This document shows, piece by piece, positions 39,171 through 45,249 of a stretch of DNA of 59,670 nt. This stretch comes from Desulfobacterales bacterium. Its GTDB lineage: Bacteria; Desulfobacterota; Desulfobacteria; Desulfobacterales; JAAELO01. The translations under genes were made by a program, and so were the position numbers. The stretch covers positions 1 through 59,670 of the forward strand of contig JAAELO010000247.1 of NCBI GenBank assembly GCA_024226555.1. The letters run 5' to 3'. Each line of letters begins with the position of its first letter. Within the stretch, counting starts at the first letter, position 1. The notes under the pieces are model-generated. The model ran no database searches, was not told the DNA's origin, and saw nothing but the letters and a program-made list of their open reading frames with translations.

Positions 39171-39449
39171 TTATATAGCAAAAGGGTCATCATCATAGAC
39201 CTCATCAAAACTATCATTGAAAGCAACTAATATTTTCAATGTATAATCTATAAATTTTAGTATTTCTTGAGTTATATCAGGTTCTGTATAATTTAAATCA
39301 TCATCATTATACTCAATTTTAGATTCATAATCACTAATATGTTTTATAAATTCGTTAAAGTTCACTGTTTCATTTAAATCAAATTTAAACTCTCTACTGT
39401 CATCTTTAATATTTATAATTGTTCCACTTCTTTTCATTATTAACTTCAT
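39171..39449 (-). CDS. small acidic protein downstream of the PHP/ATPase gene
   Basis: 92 aa, acidic (DYESKIEYNDDDLNYTEPD, ending DEVYDDDPFAI), no membrane segment. It starts 10 nt after the stop of the PHP/ATPase gene, so it is almost surely in the same operon. No family is recognised. Its base composition matches the ATPase and is more AT-rich than neighbouring genes. An internal ATG four codons later is an alternative start. Confidence 0.6.
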   Translation of the reverse strand: MKLIMKRSGTIINIKDDSREFKFDLNETVNFNEFIKHISDYESKIEYNDDDLNYTEPDITQEILKFIDYTLKILVAFNDSFDEVYDDDPFAI

Positions 39450-39459
39450 AGTTTATCCA

Positions 39460-41940
39460 TCAAAATGTAGATTTTAATTTTTCAATATTATATTTACTCA
39501 TTCTATTTCTGAAAGCAACATCACCTCCATCTAAAATATTGCATGCTTCTTTTCTTATTACTTTATTCTCCAAACCACCTTGTCTATAATTAATTCCAGT
39601 CTTGGTGTTTTCACAGATTATTATATTTTCAGCATCTCCATATATAGCAATACTCGGGTTATGTGTAACTAAAATAATCTGCATCTTTTTTTTTAATTTC
39701 CTTATTAAAGTAACTAATGTTTCACTTATATATTTATTGTCAATGTTATCTTCAATTTGATCTATCATTAATACTTTTTTTTCATTATTTTGAAGATAAC
39801 TATTTAATTTTACATCAAGAAATATTGATGCTTTTCTACCTTGTGAAGTTGAGGTTGTATTAACTAACATATCTCCTTTTTCGACTATTTCGTATTCTTT
39901 TTTACTTTTGTTTTTTAACACAAATTCATCTACTTTTTTATCAAATATATCAGGTGTTTTTCCTTTTAATCCTGTTTTTTGTTTAACTCTGACTTCTGTT
40001 TCTGAATCTGCAATATCTATTATATTTTTGTAAATATTTTTATCTTTATTATAGTTTATAAAATTGTTTTGAAATAATTGCTCAGTTATTTTTTTATTAT
40101 TAATTTCAAAGTTCAATTTTGAACAAAAGTTATAATTTTTAGTTTTTTTGATTTTGTCTTCAACCTTAATTTCAATATTACTTATATCTTTACAAATTTC
40201 TTTTAGTTTTAGTTTAGATAAAAAATATCTTTTATAATTCCTTAAATCTTCTTCAATTTCATTCTTTGAAAAAGCAATAGTTTGAGCTTCATTGCTTAGT
40301 TCATCTTGAATGAATTCTCTATAAATATTTTTTATTTTTTTGAAAAAATCTATAATTAATTCAGTTTTATTTTTTGATTTATCTATTAATTCTTTTTTTT
40401 CTTTGAGTAAACTCAATATATCATCTATCTTATCTTGTTCATCAAAATTGAAGAGTGATTTCCCTTTGAATTCTTTTTTTTTTAATTTTTTAATGCTTGC
40501 TTCGACACCTGAAATACTATCAGATATTTCTATATGGTGATCAATATTGAATTCAACATGTAAATCATTTTCATCTATATGAATTATTTCTTTGATATCT
40601 TTAGCGCTATTAATTATAAGATTTGATCTATTACCTTTATTGATGACATTTTGAGTCTCATAATAAATTTTATAGTACGATTTAAGTCTGTTGAAAAGCA
40701 TTCCAATTTTTGTCTCTTCTATAGAGATTTCTTGATCTGAAAAATCAAGAAAAAATTCATCTAAATTTCTCCTTAAATCTTTTTCATCATTAAAAAGTTC
40801 AATTATTTTTTCTTGATAGTAAGCATCTGAATTTAAGGTATATTTAGTTGAATAATCTCCAATATTAAGTTTTATATTTGTAATATTAAGATCAATTAAA
40901 TTTTTATAATCTCTTTCAAAAACAACCTTTTGCTCTTTGTCTATGTCTTGGTTTAATGCTACTATAGTATTAAAAAAAAGACTTTTACCTGATGAACGCC
41001 CTCCAATTATAACATTTAAATATGGAGACATTTGTATTTCACTTTCTGATCCATCCGTTTGATGAATTTTTATTTTTTCAATGAAATGTGGAACGTGTGT
41101 AGGTATAATTTCAGAGGAACAGATTCTACTTTCAGGATCAGAAAAACCGATTCTTAAACTTTCATAATTTAAATGACCCTTTAACCAAGTACTTTCCTTT
41201 GGACACTTATAATTATTACAGTCATGATTATCAGAAAAAGAAACATAAGATGTTGTTTCATCTTCAAATCCACGTTCTAATAATTTTTTAAATCCTTCAT
41301 TATAAATATTAATAGCATTATTTCTTTTGATATTACTTTTCATCTCAAGAGCTGATATCTCTCCAATAAGTATATTATATTGTGCCTCATAAATTTTACC
41401 ATTCAGCTTATAAGGTGAAACAATACCTTTATGTTTATTACCATGAGCTATTATAAAAAAATCTTCATTTTGAAAGGATTCAAATAAATATTTGAAAGTT
41501 GTTGTACGAAGTTTCTTTTTCCTATTTAAATTTATTTTAGATTCCAGCTCATTTATACTAATAGATTCATACATTTTATCTAAAACCATATTCAATTCAG
41601 AGTAATTTCTTGATCTAAAAATAACTATAATATGAAATGGTTTGTTCGATACAGAATCCCCGCTATCTCTTGAAAATACATATTTTTTAAGTATTTCTTC
41701 TGATATAGATATGTCTAATTCAACACCAACTAAAATTTTAATTTCTGAGTTATCTATATCTTTATAAGCAGCACAATTAATAATATTATGATCAGTAAGG
41801 GAGATCATTGCTACAGAGTTCTTTTTTAATTTGTTTATTAAAATATTAGAATCAAAAGAAGCTTTGTAATCATTATCTTTAGTTATATTCGATTTATCGG
41901 TATGTATATGTAAATCAATCTTATGCCATGTTGAAATCAT
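39460..41940 (-). CDS. PHP-domain / SMC-like ATPase (TrlF-type)
   Basis: 826 aa. The N-terminal PHP phosphoesterase domain has intact metal motifs: H11-x-H13-x-D15 (DLHIHTD), TDHN (49-52), VGVELD (71-76), IIAHGNKH, and SFSDNHDC. An ABC/SMC-type ATPase follows: Walker A GGRSSGKS near residue 310, a long Lys/Glu-rich coiled coil (about 430-640), a signature-like region TSTSQGRKAS, Walker B VLMIDQIEDNID and the H-switch ILVTHNPS. This arrangement is that of TrlF-family ATPases, found in mobile and defence-like loci. It is inferred to be a nucleic-acid-targeting enzyme. It is markedly more AT-rich than surrounding genes, which suggests transfer. Confidence 0.82.
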   Translation of the reverse strand: MISTWHKIDLHIHTDKSNITKDNDYKASFDSNILINKLKKNSVAMISLTDHNIINCAAYKDIDNSEIKILVGVELDISISEEILKKYVFSRDSGDSVSNKPFHIIVIFRSRNYSELNMVLDKMYESISINELESKINLNRKKKLRTTTFKYLFESFQNEDFFIIAHGNKHKGIVSPYKLNGKIYEAQYNILIGEISALEMKSNIKRNNAINIYNEGFKKLLERGFEDETTSYVSFSDNHDCNNYKCPKESTWLKGHLNYESLRIGFSDPESRICSSEIIPTHVPHFIEKIKIHQTDGSESEIQMSPYLNVIIGGRSSGKSLFFNTIVALNQDIDKEQKVVFERDYKNLIDLNITNIKLNIGDYSTKYTLNSDAYYQEKIIELFNDEKDLRRNLDEFFLDFSDQEISIEETKIGMLFNRLKSYYKIYYETQNVINKGNRSNLIINSAKDIKEIIHIDENDLHVEFNIDHHIEISDSISGVEASIKKLKKKEFKGKSLFNFDEQDKIDDILSLLKEKKELIDKSKNKTELIIDFFKKIKNIYREFIQDELSNEAQTIAFSKNEIEEDLRNYKRYFLSKLKLKEICKDISNIEIKVEDKIKKTKNYNFCSKLNFEINNKKITEQLFQNNFINYNKDKNIYKNIIDIADSETEVRVKQKTGLKGKTPDIFDKKVDEFVLKNKSKKEYEIVEKGDMLVNTTSTSQGRKASIFLDVKLNSYLQNNEKKVLMIDQIEDNIDNKYISETLVTLIRKLKKKMQIILVTHNPSIAIYGDAENIIICENTKTGINYRQGGLENKVIRKEACNILDGGDVAFRNRMSKYNIEKLKSTF

Positions 41941-42085
41941 TAATTAACCTTTAAATATTAAAAAATCTTTTGGTAACAGGAATGATAGATGAATTTTTAA
42001 ATCATAAATAATAGATTAACCAAAATAAAACTTCTTTGTAAATCTTAACAACAATTACTAAAAAAAGTGAAATAGTCAACCAATA

Positions 42086-42558
42086 ATAAAAAAGGAATGG
42101 GAGGGGGCAGTTTCATCCCATTCCTTTTTCGCCTCTTTCATATGTAGTTTAGATATGACCTCTTTCCTGCGCAAAACTGGTGTCTCGCTGAAGAAAATCT
42201 TCAGTTACAAAATGTTCTACCCTGAATTAAAACTTTATGAGACTTATGACATAAAAAACTAAAGTATTTTTATGTCGACCCAGTTCATTTCACTCAACAT
42301 TTTTCTGAAAAAAGAATAAAAACAGTGGACGTTTACAAATGAAATAACTATTTGTAACAATCTTTATCCCTTTGTTTTTCATGGATTTTGTTGTGTTTGA
42401 GTGAAAAAACTGCCCCGCAATGGGAAAGAGGCGTTGACGGAATCTGTATCTTTCTGTAAAAAAGGTATTAGCCATGCTCTTTTCATCCTTAAGGTCTAAG
42501 AGTTTGGTCAGAGTCGTAGCCGGAGGTCGCCACCTCTGCTTCGACTCGCTTCTACGAT
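42086..42558 (-). ncRNA. structured RNA gene, copy 1
   Basis: About 470 nt, homologous to 44243-44722 (over 75% identity by eye). Minus-strand reading runs promoter, hairpins, then an intrinsic terminator. Helices seen on the plus strand: GAGTCG/CGACTC (42511-42546 region), ACAAAT/ATTTGT, GACATAAAAA/TTTTTATGTC, CTGAAGA/TCTTCAG, a long-range CTCTTTCC (42160-42167)/GGAAAGAG (42423-42430), and the terminator stem. Several of these change on both sides in copy 2. A 61-codon ORF lies inside (42475-42290), but copy-to-copy changes fall equally on codon positions 1, 2 and 3 (hand count 11/12/12), so coding selection is not evident. I recognise no known RNA class. Confidence 0.7.
42087..42127 (-). 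terminator. terminator of RNA copy 1 with pseudoknot-capable loop
   Basis: A 12-bp stem AAAGGAATGGGA / TCCCATTCCTTT ends in a U-run on the minus strand. Its 13-nt loop contains (plus strand) GGGGCAGTTT at 42104-42113, perfectly complementary to AAACTGCCCC at 42407-42416. Confidence 0.85.
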
Positions 42559-42564
42559 ATAACT

Positions 42565-42593
42565 ACCATATACACTGCATTTGAATTTTACAA
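42565..42593 (-). promoter_or_regulatory. sigma70-like promoter of RNA copy 1
   Basis: On the minus strand TTGTAA (42593-42588), a 17-bp spacer and TATGGT (42570-42565). The same TTGTAA-N17-TATTGT arrangement is present at the equivalent place in copy 2. The predicted RNA start is near 42558. Confidence 0.65.
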
Positions 42594-43140
42594 TAGAAAA
42601 ATAAAAAAAATTATACTAAGATTAAAAACTTCACTCCCTTTTTTGTTTTTTACAAAATCTGTTTATCAAACCTTGAATAAAAAACTAATGTTTTTAGAGT
42701 TTTTTATGTAGGTTGCTCAAAAGCTTGGCTTCCTATAGAACAAAAATGGTTTAATTTTGTTCGGTCAGGAGGTTTTTGTCTTTTAAATTAATTCGGTGCA
42801 GAAGGTTTTGTTATAGTTTAAGGTTTCGCAATATCATGAGATTCCTGACTCAGGTTTGGAGAAAACATTCCAAACCTTCTCAGGAATGACACGATATTTT
42901 TTTTGATTTTGGGATAAAGGCCATTCATTGTATTTGCTAAACCACATGATTCCAATGATTTATATTATGCTTTTGTAATTTGATCACATTTTTAGGATTA
43001 GGAATTTTGTTTTAATTTCAGATTATAAAATCTCTGTTTTCGAAGATTATATCTCGCAGGAATATGGTTTTATTTCGAGATATTTGAAGAAAAACGAAGT
43101 CATTAATCAAAAGAACAATCATAAAAGGTTAAGTTACAAT
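42594..43140. other. gene-free spacer with palindromes
   Basis: It holds a GAATAAAAAACTAATG..GAGTTTTTTATG hairpin (about 42675-42710) related to that at 18.7 kb. It also holds a REP-like palindrome CTCAGGTTTGGA...TCCAAACCTTCTCAGG (42841-42892) and, at 43072-43134, the segment TTTGAAGAAAAACGAAG...AAAGAACAATCATAAA shared with 38.5 and 58.3 kb. No gene is seen. Confidence 0.6.
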
Positions 43141-43332
43141 TTATAGACATAGGGGAATCTCTACAGCAGTAGTATTATCAGCTTTTCTCTGCTCCTCATT
43201 CAATGCAGGATATCCTGCTTTTTTCCGCATCTTAATCAGCCAGGCTTCCTTCTGGGCCGGTGACATTTGCCCCACATTCCCATGACTTATCGGATGAATC
43301 TTTGTTACTGTTTTTTTTGCTTTTGCGTACAT
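43141..43332 (-). CDS. small basic protein of unknown function
   Basis: 63 aa, starts MYAKAKKTVTKIHPISHG and contains MSPAQKEAWLIKMRKKAGYP. It is lysine-rich and has no membrane segment. AGGAG sits 8 nt upstream of the ATG, and the codon use and composition look like a real gene. I do not recognise it. It lies alone between the two structured-RNA copies, transcribed in the same direction, so it could be part of the same accessory unit. Confidence 0.55.
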   Translation of the reverse strand: MYAKAKKTVTKIHPISHGNVGQMSPAQKEAWLIKMRKKAGYPALNEEQRKADNTTAVEIPLCL

Positions 43333-43627
43333 CTTTTTTTCTCCTGGTCAATTGGGATTTTCAGCAAGGTTAATGATAAAAATCAGTAGAAAATTCTCAA
43401 TTCAAAATAAAACTTGAGGAACCTCTAATTACTAATTATTATAGGTTCCCTTAATGTTTGCAAATCCCAATGAAAACTATTGATATGAAATGTAGTGTAG
43501 CTCACCTCTTCAGGATGTAATAAATCTTCCAATTTGCCACTTTTTTACAACCTAAAGAATGGTCCTTCTTCGGAATGCACACTATAAGATCGATCAGGTC
43601 GGTTTTTACTTCATCCTGATCCCCTTA
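43333..43627. repeat. spacer with short MITE relic
   Basis: Contains a ~36-bp relic, GAGGAACCTCTAATTACTAA..ATAGGTTCCCT (43416-43451). The rest shows no feature. Confidence 0.5.
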
Positions 43628-43760
43628 AGGGAACCTCTAAAAATTAGATATTTGATTGAAATACAAGGGTGAGAAATAAATAACGAGGCGATTTTCCAAC
43701 AGTTTTTTATTTCGAACAACGCAGTAGTTCGGTCAAAGAGCAGTTTTTTAGAGGTTCCCT
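43628..43760 (+). repeat. MITE-like repeat, full-length copy
   Basis: A 133-bp copy with ends AGGGAACCTCTAAAAATTAG and TTTTTTAGAGGTTCCCT, flanked by TTA on the left and TAA on the right like the inner copy at 25474. It carries the GACTGAACTAC-type internal sequence of the variant at 4879. Confidence 0.85.
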
Positions 43761-43781
43761 TAATAAAATTGTTATTATTTT

Positions 43782-43977
43782 TATCGCATTATAGAGAAGA
43801 GTTTTTGCCCAAGCACTGGTTATTTGATTTTTATTATTTCAGCGATTAACTTTACCACCGATGAAATATTGTTAAGGCATATCTGTCCACCCATACGATG
43901 TATTAACTTTTAGTTATTCTTTTATCGCAATATAGATAAAAGCTTTTGTCCAGACACTGGTTATTTGTTTTTTATGG
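43782..43977. repeat. paired direct-repeat segment, left copy
   Basis: Two ~56-bp units (43782-43838 and 43922-43977), both reading TTATCGCAATATAGATAAG-like sequence and then CACTGGTTATTTGATTTTTAT, with about 85 bp between. A homologous segment in the same orientation lies at 57440-57637, so the tail-gene cluster is bracketed by direct copies. Confidence 0.7.
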
Positions 43978-44097
43978 TTATAAGAAATACTTCTATGGCG
44001 TAATACATAGGCTTTGAAGCAAAGACGGATACTTGGCAAAGGTGTGAAGAAAAGAAGTACTTATTTAATTTGTGGTTTTGATGTAGATTGGATCTAC

Positions 44098-44227
44098 AGG
44101 AAATCTCTAATAACTGATCTTTTTGCGAAACACAGATATAACAAAAATAAAACTGTAGAAAAATCAACCCGTTGTTTTTTGTTACGCCTTGTTTTTCATC
44201 AAAAATTCTAATTATTAGAGATTGCCT
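44098..44227 (-). repeat. MITE-like repeat, full-length inverted copy
   Basis: A 130-bp copy closest to that at 5754-5885 (AGGAAATCTCTAATAACTGA...AATTATTAGAGATTGCCT). It ends about 16 bp from the terminator of RNA copy 2. Confidence 0.85.
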
Positions 44228-44242
44228 AAAGGAGGCTAATTA

Positions 44243-44287
44243 TAAAAAGTAAGGTATGGGACGGGACAGTTGCTTTCCCATACCTTT
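44243..44287 (-). terminator. terminator of RNA copy 2
   Basis: Stem AAGGTATGGGA / TCCCATACCTT, followed on the minus strand by ACTTTTTAT. The loop sequence is complementary to the segment around 44571-44580. Confidence 0.75.
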
Positions 44288-44722
44288 GACCGCCTCTTTC
44301 ATATGTAGTTTAAGTGTACAATCTTTCGCACGCAAAACTGGTGTTTAACTGAAGAAATTCTTCAGTCACAATAAATTCCACCCCGAATTAAAACATTTGA
44401 ATTTTTTAAACATAAAAAAACTAAAGTCTTTTTATGTTAACCCAGTTCAATTTCACTCAATACTTTTAGATAAAATGAATAAAAAAAGGCCAGATTTACA
44501 AATAAAAGAATTATTTGTAACAGTCTTTATCCATAGTTTTTCAAGGGATTTGGTTGTACTTGAGTGAAAAAACTGCCCCGACGTGCGAAAGATGCGTTGA
44601 CGGAATCTGTATCTTTCTGTAAATAAAGTAATAGCCATGACTCTTCTTTTCCTTTTAGGTTAAGAGTTTGGTCAGAGTCAAAAGTGGAGGGTACCGCCTC
44701 TGCTTTGACTCGCTTCTACGAT
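44243..44722 (-). ncRNA. structured RNA gene, copy 2
   Basis: The second copy of the RNA at 42086-42558, same strand, 2.15 kb away. It keeps every helix with paired changes: terminator stem GGTATGGGA/TCCCATACC (copy 1 GGAATGGGA/TCCCATTCC), long-range helix ATCTTTCGCACG (44321-44332)/CGTGCGAAAGAT (44582-44593), hairpin AACAT/ATGTT (copy 1 GACAT/ATGTC), and GAGTCA/TGACTC (copy 1 GAGTCG/CGACTC). The pseudoknot AACTGTCCCG/CGGGGCAGTT needs one G-U pair, which is allowed only in minus-strand RNA. The embedded ORF is 44638-44453. Own promoter and terminator. Confidence 0.7.
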
Positions 44723-44728
44723 ATAACC

Positions 44729-44757
44729 ACAATATACACAGCTTTTGAAATTTACAA
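44729..44757 (-). promoter_or_regulatory. sigma70-like promoter of RNA copy 2
   Basis: On the minus strand TTGTAA (44757-44752), a 17-bp spacer and TATTGT (44734-44729), matching the arrangement of copy 1. Confidence 0.65.
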
Positions 44758-44785
44758 TAAAAAAATGAAAAAAATATACTAAGAT

Positions 44786-45249
44786 TAAAAAAAGAGTTCC
44801 GTTTTTTATTTTTTTAGGCCTGTTTGTCAAATCTAAAATAAAAATTTTGTTGTTTGGTATTTTTATATAATACTTTTTAAAGCAAAAGTTTTATAAGGAA
44901 ATTCTTAAAAAAATGATTGGACCTCTCTAAAAAAATAACTTTGATTTCAGGCTGTCATGAATAAAAAAACAAAAATCAAGTAAAAACCTCTGGATTCCTG
45001 ATACCTGATTAAGAACAAGCTTTAATCAGGTTCTGGAATGACGACCGTTTAAGTTGATATCTTTAAAGGCTTAATACAAAATGTTTTCACTCTAAAACAG
45101 AAAAAAATGATTTGTGACACTGCCTCACTTTCCAAAAAAGTATGTTTCTTGTAGCGTTCTGGAATGACAACCGTGCTAATATTCTAAAGATCAAATTACT
45201 TATTTTAGAATTTTTGAGATAGCTTCAATAATTTTGATTCCCATGGCAT
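44786..45249. other. gene-free spacer with REP-like palindromes
   Basis: It holds a TGGATTCCTGATACCTGATTA...TTAATCAGGTTCTGGAATGACG palindrome (about 44990-45045), half of another (GTTCTGGAATGACAACCG near 45155) and one end (TTGTGACACTGCCTC, about 45113) of the GAGGCTGTGTC element seen at 57.8 kb. No gene is seen. Confidence 0.55.

Follow-up and report, generated by a model that had tools for sequence, protein, structure and literature searches.

We describe a family of about fifty members, so far known from one bacterial genome, in which each copy is, on a reading that we hold with slightly more confidence than doubt, a gene unit of the symE/SymR type that would be controlled by an antisense RNA and would carry an unusually large folded sense RNA. 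From its sequence, we infer that the family represents an antisense-controlled leader heading a large structured RNA. Two copies, A and B, lie in the window, the whole 59,670-nt stretch of Desulfobacterales DNA analyzed here. When the sequence was read, both were confirmed to be units on the minus strand whose promoters, helices, and intrinsic terminators match, as originally predicted:

42565 to 42593, minus strand: copy A sense promoter (-35 TTGTAA at 42593-42588, 17-nt spacer, -10 TATGGT at 42570-42565), a candidate by consensus resemblance only
44729 to 44757, minus strand: copy B candidate sense promoter (TTGTAA at 44757-44752, N17, TATTGT at 44734-44729), from the sequence
42086 to 42124, minus strand: copy A intrinsic terminator, from the sequence
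44241 to 44284, minus strand: copy B intrinsic terminator, from the sequence

A simple pattern scan does not list these promoters and terminators because its patterns are stricter. Four helices had been listed as changing on both sides between the copies, and all were found. Both copies fold strongly (z-scores of -4.47 and -5.04; 0 of 100 shuffles fold equally well). The whole window has no match in Rfam 15 at the gathering thresholds, and the two matches returned for positions 41900-44900 are at chance level and outside the copies. The original prediction of a large, truly structured RNA with compensatory changes and outside the Rfam classes is upheld; its claim of a two-copy non-coding gene of no recognized kind is not.

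The 7.7-Mb genome holds about fifty members rather than two. With the family's covariance model, 51 matches are obtained, among them partial copies at the ends of contigs and a single decayed relic (C198); blastn gives 43, some of which are two pieces of a single copy. A motif list of 42 rows, minus five reverse-strand matches to the complementary 3′ strand, leaves 37 copies; a filtered count demanded an ATG at -33, and the unfiltered 37 all have the ATG anyway. One locus (L054) was later removed as a duplicate of L047. Outside this genome, covariance-model searches of 389 and 297 genomes, both sets containing the family's own, gave only four marginal matches, and a DNA search of 57 other genomes gave one 29-nt match (G049). 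No family member appeared in the relatives searched, and tblastn against phage and plasmid sequences found no match. The core-motif pattern had 0 matches in viral contigs and one in genome contigs, which lies in coding DNA of a GC-rich MAG and which we read as chance; both collections may omit the window's own genome. Two further candidates were rejected: L138 (model R1, E = 8e-4), which by eye sits in an apparent coding frame, and L103, which falls within a long ORF encoding a different protein. We recognized no description of the family in the literature searched, in which subscription journals are thinly covered. Some fifty dispersed copies, several contigs that end at or close to a copy, and one decayed relic (L142) would suit a non-autonomous mobile element with the RNA as a mere passenger. 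The paralogs differ by compensatory changes, however, which indicates long selection on the RNA, and we consider a passenger RNA quite unlikely.

We find that the 5′ third of the RNA has the layout of a leader controlled by antisense RNA, as in symE/SymR (RF01809), with a conserved translation start; the family lies outside Rfam, but the view that it is of no recognizable kind is not supported. Its 5′ domain follows the order of a SymR-type leader, namely hairpin P1, UGAAC linker, Shine-Dalgarno (SD)–bearing hairpin, and AUG:

42506 to 42549, minus strand: copy A hairpin P1 and UGACC linker, from covariation over 42 copies and outgroup rows
42476 to 42505, minus strand: copy A SD region (AAGGA) with hairpin P2, from the SD-like AAGGA/GGAG before the ATG in listed copies
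44639 to 44713, minus strand: copy B leader with P1, linker, and P2/SD, from alignment, P1 covariation, and outgroup rows

Pairing in P1 is shown by covariation across 42 copies: 94.0% of cells are paired, and both-side cells number 56, compared with 19.1 after shuffling. Column-wise, the P1 apical loop carries 0.37 bits of information against 1.21-1.58 in the stems, as would be expected if each paralog recognizes only its own antisense RNA. The P2 stem is computed, is variable in form, and has no covariation count behind it. Model R1, built from this family alone, ranks the Escherichia coli symE leader top in a 6.5-kb stretch searched on both strands (16.3 bits; the runner-up has 7.6), AUG on AUG. 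Taken alone, this is a modest match (E = 0.0023 in 15.8 kb). The two leaders share the order P1, UAAUC/UGAAC linker, SD hairpin, AUG.

The likeness extends into the ORF. According to the part of the source available, the symE coding sequence contains the SymR promoter (PMC1891008). The annotated symR start corresponds to nt 6 of the symE ORF, and its -10 (TAGAAT) lies, by eye, at nt 14-19, the same place as in the family. Here, conserved letters in the first 14 ORF codons fit TTGACG-N17-TAAAAN at the symR position, which is compatible with an ORF-internal antisense promoter and an antisense start at nt 6:

42434 to 42462, plus strand: copy A predicted antisense promoter (-35 TTGACG at 42434-42439, N17, -10 TAAAAA at 42457-42462), from position-specific conservation and symR geometry
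42470 to 42549, plus strand: copy A predicted SymR-like antisense RNA of ~80 nt over AUG, SD, P2, and P1, from geometry; start matching annotated symR, 3′ end approximate
44597 to 44625, plus strand: copy B predicted antisense promoter (-35 TTGACG at 44597-44602, N17, -10 TAAATA at 44620-44625), from family conservation
44633 to 44713, plus strand: copy B predicted antisense RNA

Mean information at these positions (nt 5-6, 14-19, and 37-42), which were noticed in the same sequences before being scored on them, is 1.83 bits, whereas the remaining positions of nt 4-42 average 0.93 (p = 2e-5, 47 copies). The predicted -10 is without a final T, and the pattern scan, which demands one, therefore misses it; nt 14 is not conserved (0.5 bits). 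The predicted -35 lies within a longer conserved block (nt 34-56) that also contains the 5′ strand of the long-range helix LR, and this offers another reason for the conservation of the -35. We saw no clear terminator for an antisense RNA. The geometry suggests that an antisense RNA may control the family's leaders. The earlier view that it is the RNA fold that is kept is borne out by the structured body and its compensatory changes, but part of the nucleotide conservation fits an antisense promoter.

There are also differences from symE/SymR. Whereas symE encodes a 113-aa AbrB-fold protein, the family ORF encodes neither this protein nor any conserved peptide and lies within a folded RNA of ~450 nt; the family's antisense RNA is a prediction only, and the symE hexamer at nt 37-42 is TTCTGC, not TTGACG. 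Both are multiplied within a genome; for SymE, a copy number of at least 14 is reported from Erwinia (PMC1891008, in the part available).

Leaders with the same layout occur elsewhere. Eleven in other genomes (L139 and ten further loci) precede unrelated ORFs, and SD and start codon are present in 11 of 11. A hexamer starting with TA is found at nt 14-19 in seven of these (in L159, the count was made by eye and starts at the second ATG), or 8/12 with symE, and is missing in the other 4/12. At nt 37-42, agreement with TTGACG is 4/6 in L152, 5/6 in L153, 3/6 in L159, and 0-2 in the other eight and symE; the outgroups give no support for a -35 there. Model R2 has three outgroup loci and symE among its rows, and its re-finding of two of these four is no test because they were already rows. 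In Rfam, the strand opposite the L139 leader scored as SymR (40.3 bits, cut-off 61), and RF00043, the R1162-like plasmid antisense RNA, matched L141 (37.9 bits) and L140 (29.6 bits; cut-off 55). Unlike a true RF00043 member, these matches fall below the cut-off, on the leader's own rather than the antisense strand, and the target genes differ. RF00043 and ptaRNA1 are families of small antisense RNAs that target mRNA leaders. The window copies have no Rfam antisense match.

The ORF begins at the end of the leader and is 30-71 codons long across the family:

42290 to 42475, minus strand: copy A 61-codon ORF (frame open, peptide sequence not conserved)
44453 to 44638, minus strand: copy B 61-codon ORF, from the sequence

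SD and ATG stand at a fixed place in all 37 motif-defined copies, and frame 0 avoids stops: stops before codon 40 occur in 2/23 type I and 0/23 type II copies, where column shuffles give 11.8 and 5.0, and none of 500 shuffles had a count as low. This test covered 46 of 47 copies, L055 being too short; an earlier version (15 copies of type I, 18 of type II) had omitted L088 and L092, both with early stops. A stop is in reach in 41 of 42 copies. Comparison of paralogs, in turn, found no selection on the peptide sequence. Differences are spread 46/45/57 over codon positions in 19 disjoint paralog pairs, which confirms and extends the flat spread reported for the window copies, and indels are mostly frameshifting. 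The copy A ORF has only a sub-threshold Pfam match (Cas_Csa4, E = 0.045). As read from the paralogs, the frame is kept open while the peptide drifts, and the ORF is not the incidental feature it had been taken for.

These results bear on two alternatives. If the family were a free-standing class of large structured non-coding RNA, like GOLLD, ROOL, and OLE, its SD, AUG, and ORF would be incidental. We know of no antisense-led leader in those three classes. The strong fold, the covarying helices, the flat substitutions and frameshifting indels, and the count of 0/23 type II copies with the partner gene in the available sequence would all be expected of such a class. It accounts poorly for a start site at a fixed place, for a frame with so few stops, and for a leader that matches the symE leader and stands ahead of true ORFs elsewhere, and we regard it as unlikely. 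The family shares with GOLLD, ROOL, and OLE a size class and an ornate fold (PMC12286853, as far as the source was available), but has no Rfam match.

The second alternative is a type I toxin-antitoxin system, in which the ORF would be a toxic peptide, the antisense RNA its antitoxin, and long-range pairing would keep the mRNA inert, as in hok. Hok mRNA combines a short ORF, antisense control, and 5′-3′ long-range pairing in one stable mRNA, in which the family, with its predicted antisense control, resembles it; Hok is a conserved membrane toxin. The leader, the antisense-promoter-like ORF letters, the many diverged copies, and the long-range pairing of the family are features typical of type I systems, and symE/SymR itself has been presented as a toxin that antisense RNA controls (PMC1891008, in the part available). 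The conserved, usually hydrophobic peptide of such systems is absent, however: the sequence drifts, and the hydrophobicity of the ORF tail does not exceed that of shuffled tails (1.11 versus 1.19; above the null in 18/44), so that we rejected the peptide-toxin idea and find a type I system doubtful.

Beyond the leader, the RNA body is structured, as judged from pairing, via helices P7 and LR, with a proposed pseudoknot (PK), all on the minus strand:

Copy A LR: 5′ strand CTCTTTCC at 42423-42430, 3′ strand GGAAAGAG at 42160-42167 (pairing counts)
Copy B LR: 5′ strand ATCTTTCGCACG at 44582-44593, 3′ strand CGTGCGAAAGAT at 44321-44332 (pairing counts)
Copy A PK: 5′ strand GGGGCAGTT at 42408-42416, 3′ strand AACTGCCCC, in the terminator loop, at 42104-42112 (complementarity)
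Copy B PK: 5′ strand GGGGCAGTT at 44571-44579, 3′ strand AACTGTCCC at 44263-44271 (complementarity)
Copy A P7: 5′ strand GAACTGGG at 42279-42286, 3′ strand ACCAGTTT at 42174-42181 (pairing counts)
Copy B P7: 5′ strand GAACTGGG at 44441-44448, 3′ strand ACCAGTTT at 44335-44342 (pairing counts)

Of the 11 type I rows, 9-11 can form any given PK pair, with one-sided variation only, so that PK is backed by complementarity rather than covariation. A second long-range helix, GTCAACGCC/GGCGTTGAC, is not claimed because by eye it is broken in both window copies. The family structure was set by hand, as RNAalifold on alignment A3 gave an unhelpful consensus; in alignment A4, the terminator and inner-P1 columns were left out of the pair counts because MAFFT misaligned them.

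Many copies form one half of a unit of two genes, the other being a protein gene downstream. A gene for a ~103-aa protein follows 13/17 testable type I and 0/18 type II copies (automatic labels gave 13/19 and 0/16; L041 and L058 were typed II by reading the sequence). The RNA does not need this gene, as type II copies keep the RNA without it. The protein and the RNA vary together (Mantel test: r = 0.47, p = 1e-4, n = 15; without the largest clade, r = 0.71, p = 7e-4, n = 9), and the two appear from their sequences to have evolved together. The protein has no credible match in Pfam, NCBIfam, PHROGs, or PDB, but hhalign ties it to the small GIY-YIG-like protein L101 (probability 96.5%, E = 8e-10), whose own match to Pfam GIY-YIG is weak (E = 0.1). 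Unlike these relatives, it is without the likely catalytic residues, which we assigned in L101 by the GIY-YIG motif: the Arg of L101 and L174 is Ser (Asn in one row) and the Glu is Lys or Arg. Its structure model (pLDDT 82.9) has no confident Foldseek or VIA-align match; the best rows are unrelated folds (Z up to 4.3), with no GIY-YIG chain among the best 50.

This arrangement could also be an attenuation switch, in which antisense pairing and ORF translation decide terminator formation and downstream reading of the GIY-YIG-derived gene. In the type I units read, a terminator sits between RNA and gene; its loop complements an ORF segment; and in another genus, L156 has an antisense-type leader and short ORF before a gene that by eye is integrase-like. 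On the other hand, 0/18 testable type II copies have the downstream gene yet keep the RNA, and the WYVGL motif of the partner gene lies 0.45-1.35 kb from the RNA core, sometimes beyond inserted repeats. We give the switch limited credence.

Under the symE/SymR-type reading that we prefer, the sense promoter would produce an RNA of ~450 nt whose leader starts the short ORF, while the promoter in ORF nt 14-42 would produce an antisense RNA of ~80 nt from nt 6 that pairs with the entire leader and blocks SD and AUG. Where the leader is free, ribosomes would cross the 5′ strands of LR and PK and reach the downstream stop, and this translation may unfold and refold the RNA body, setting the RNA's fate through stability, the terminator, or protein contact. 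In type I units, the ~103-aa protein might bind its cognate RNA or be expressed by read-through under the RNA's control. A drifting peptide leaves the purpose of translation unaccounted for under this explanation, which we count against it. Tentatively, the whole might be a two-part system of an antisense-controlled folded RNA of ~450 nt and a dedicated RNA-binding protein derived from a dead GIY-YIG nuclease, with some fifty RNA units of separate antisense specificities in one cell and an ORF that lets the ribosome remodel the RNA rather than make a particular peptide.

Antisense control of leaders is known for a small number of plasmid and toxin genes. The available part of one source describes such a leader for a toxin gene (PMC1891008). 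With our models, the leader also turns up ahead of unrelated small genes in other genomes from the class and phylum, which suggests an under-recognized control module. Some fifty diverged copies in one genome form a natural library on the specificity of sense-antisense pairs, and an open ORF with a drifting peptide makes translation as a refolding device a directly testable idea.

Two copies of the RNA lie on the minus strand of the window, and they share 80% identity over the query (blastn).

42086-42593, minus strand: RNA copy A, read from the sequence
44241-44757, minus strand: RNA copy B, read from the sequence

The promoter hexamers and intrinsic terminators of both copies are present in the sequence, as are all four of the helix changes that the original prediction described between them. 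Both single-strand folds are better than those of shuffled sequences (z = -4.47 and -5.04; 0 of 100 shuffles as good). An Rfam check of the whole window returned no family at or above cut-off. Both copies are real, but this is not a two-copy gene: the genome contains 51 matches to R1, a 42-row covariance model covering the 5' domain. Some of the 51 are partial copies at the ends of contigs, and one, L142, is a decayed relic that retains the start but has lost the body. By blastn, 43 places in the genome match copy A. From the fetched stretches we recognise two subtypes, type I ('GGGGCAGTTTTTTCAC'), to which both window copies belong, and type II ('GGGCAGATTTTACACC'). Of the copies examined, 47 are distinct and carry both the core motif and ATG. 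One type I copy searched by blastn against 57 other genomes, from other families of the same order, gave a single 29-nt match. Within the class, R1 gave two marginal matches among 388 other genomes; within the phylum it gave two among 296 others, a set that overlaps the first.

Judged by sequence comparison, the body is really a structured RNA. In P1, a leader hairpin, 94.0% of cells are paired and 56 are changed on both sides, versus 19.1 in shuffles; shifting the partner by one column leaves only 49-54% paired. The body helix P7, whose strand starts lie at least 56 nt apart, has 13 distinct 3' strands. Its conserved site is the best partner in 32 of 40 copies (counted by hand), and pairing is better between cognate than between non-cognate strands in 35 of 40 copies (p = 2e-6). 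For LR, a second body helix, mean pairing of cognate strands is 8.6 of 10, compared with 8.2 for non-cognates and 6.7 after shuffling; cognates pair better in 24 of 40 copies (p = 0.008), and changes among the 11 type I rows include C-G to A-U and A-U/G-C/C-G. The terminator loop is also complementary to an internal GGGGCAGTT. Each pair of this proposed pseudoknot (PK) is complementary in 9-11 of the 11 type I rows, but because variation is one-sided only, we treat it as a proposal. Some copies have repeats inserted between helix strands, with the P7 strands still able to pair. By eye, imperfect palindromic repeats (GGGAACCTCTAA...TTAGAGGTTCCC and relatives) occupy window positions 43627-43765 and recur in fetched loci; the same repeats sit in RNA loops of L039, L041, L048, L051, L052, L095, L145, and L146, where paired strands are intact. 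Some type II RNAs have an extra internal module, apparently a duplicate of the P8-P7 3' region.

L046, L047, L056, L058, L143, L145, L147, L148, L149: RNAs with the extra module, around GAGTAAAAAATGGTTTTTATTTTTTATGCAATGCTTTAGCAA and variants

A Shine-Dalgarno (SD) sequence and AUG stand at a fixed 33 nt 5' of the TTCCGTCAACGCC core in all 37 motif-defined copies. The original prediction held that substitutions in the embedded ORF are spread evenly over codon positions, and this is borne out past codon 27 (46/45/57; 19 disjoint pairs, at least 72% identity). ORF indels are mostly frameshifting (52 versus 13), and the peptide sequence is therefore not conserved. Frame 0 is nevertheless depleted in stops: in the 41 copies whose available sequence extends to a stop, it runs for 30-71 codons. 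An early stop, before codon 40, is present in 2 of 23 type I sequences (L088 and L092; 11.8 in column shuffles) and in 0 of 23 type II sequences (5.0), and neither count was matched or undercut in 500 shuffles (0/500). Since column shuffling breaks relatedness, the control frames matter: neither shows a comparable shortage, the lowest being type I frame 1 (18 versus 20.8; 26 of 500 shuffles as low). Hydrophobicity of the ORF tail showed no excess over shuffled sequences.

The start of the ORF contains a predicted antisense promoter. Across the family, CGTCAA (ORF nt 37-42) is invariant and TTTTA (nt 15-19) near-invariant; the opposite strand of these blocks reads TTGACG-N17-TAAAAN, with a predicted -10 that lacks the last T. 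A conserved CT (nt 5-6) falls at the predicted antisense RNA start. Mean information is 1.83 bits at nt 5-6, 14-19, and 37-42, versus 0.93 for the remaining positions of nt 4-42 (p = 2e-5). The P1 apical loop has 0.37 bits, versus 1.21-1.58 in the P1 stems, and such variability fits sense-antisense specificity, as expected. No antisense terminator was seen. The -35 block could instead be conserved for the fold, because it continues into the LR 5' strand (nt 34-56). In outgroup loci and symE, nt 37-42 are mostly unlike TTGACA, sharing 0-5 of its 6 letters and more than 3 in just two cases.

An antisense-type leader is also found elsewhere. In the Escherichia coli symE leader, the parts follow the same order as in the family; the annotated antisense RNA symR begins at ORF nt 6, and its -10 (TAGAAT, by eye) corresponds to symE ORF nt 14-19. 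R1, built without symE, gave the symE leader as its top match in a 6.5-kb symE stretch (16.3 bits; next, 7.6). Of its four marginal matches in other genomes, L138 looks coding and was rejected as a leader. The others (L139, L140, and L141) have a hairpin, a UGA/UAA linker, an SD hairpin, and AUG, followed by unrelated small ORFs. Rfam matches below cut-off were SymR for the strand opposite L139 and R1162 plasmid antisense RNA for the leader strands of L141 and L140. At E <= 0.01, R2, a later model with outgroup rows added, recovers the leader from 9 of the 296 other genomes; ~3 are expected by chance at this threshold, and two of the nine carry loci used in the model. SD and start codon are where the model places them in 11 of 11 outgroup loci, TA opens the nt 14-19 hexamer in 7 of 11 (L159 counted from its second ATG), and P1 covariation persists across family and outgroups (32 both-side cells versus 9.3). 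In another genus, L155, L162, and L156 combine, by eye, an antisense-type leader and a 30-46-codon ORF with phage-like genes beyond, integrase-like in L156; this layout is possibly a leader-peptide arrangement.

Among copies with at least 1.3 kb downstream (type labels of two hand-corrected), a same-strand ORF of ~103 aa follows 13 of 17 type I RNAs and 0 of 18 type II RNAs. RNA and protein distances are correlated (r = 0.47, p = 1e-4, n = 15). The protein has 26 matches in its own genome, fragments among them, and none in the 57 other genomes. Two distant relatives were accepted among the 388 genomes of the class, L101 and L102, the latter with an internal stop; a third match, L103, was rejected. 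Profile comparison of the family with L101 gave a probability of 96.5% (E = 8e-10). A weak Pfam match likens L101 to small GIY-YIG-type proteins, which a viral locus, L174, also resembles by eye; no leader of the antisense type was noticed ahead of either. Their likely catalytic Arg and Glu are replaced in the family by Ser (once Asn) and by Lys or Arg. An AlphaFold model of the protein was fair (pLDDT 82.9), and fold searches gave no decisive match.

The RNA pair stands where a phage-tail-like run ends, with an 826-aa gene, likely an anti-phage defence gene by its database matches, directly downstream of copy A.

39171-39449: 92-aa ORF, following the 826-aa gene
39460-41940, minus strand: 826-aa PHP and AAA-ATPase protein (PADLOC Ppl, E = 9e-24; Pfam AAA_21)
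43141-43332, minus strand: 63-aa ORF (MYAKAKKTVTKIHPISHGNVGQMSPAQKEAWLIKMRKKAGYPALN...) between the RNA copies
45318 to about 57300, minus strand: phage-tail-like ORF run, by eye (45318-45764 matches DUF4376, E = 6e-11)

A close relative of the 63-aa ORF lies upstream of a type II copy on another contig (L046). Convergent neighbours of some type II copies (L044 and L048) look by eye like Rhs/YD-repeat proteins, and these RNAs possibly move together with polymorphic toxin cassettes.

The geometry makes it moderately well supported that a predicted antisense RNA keeps the leader shut. When this RNA is absent, ribosomes would initiate at the AUG, pass the LR and PK 5' strands, and terminate downstream; the body would therefore adopt a different fold when the ORF is translated. 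In type I units, we infer, such refolding would tune read-through to the downstream protein, or binding by it. The control part, an antisense-controlled leader, is of a known kind. Such a leader before a ~450-nt covarying RNA, with this copy number, an open but drifting ORF, and a dead-nuclease-like companion, was not found in the literature searched or in Rfam. The RNA body by itself could be more novel than that if it proves to act as RNA.
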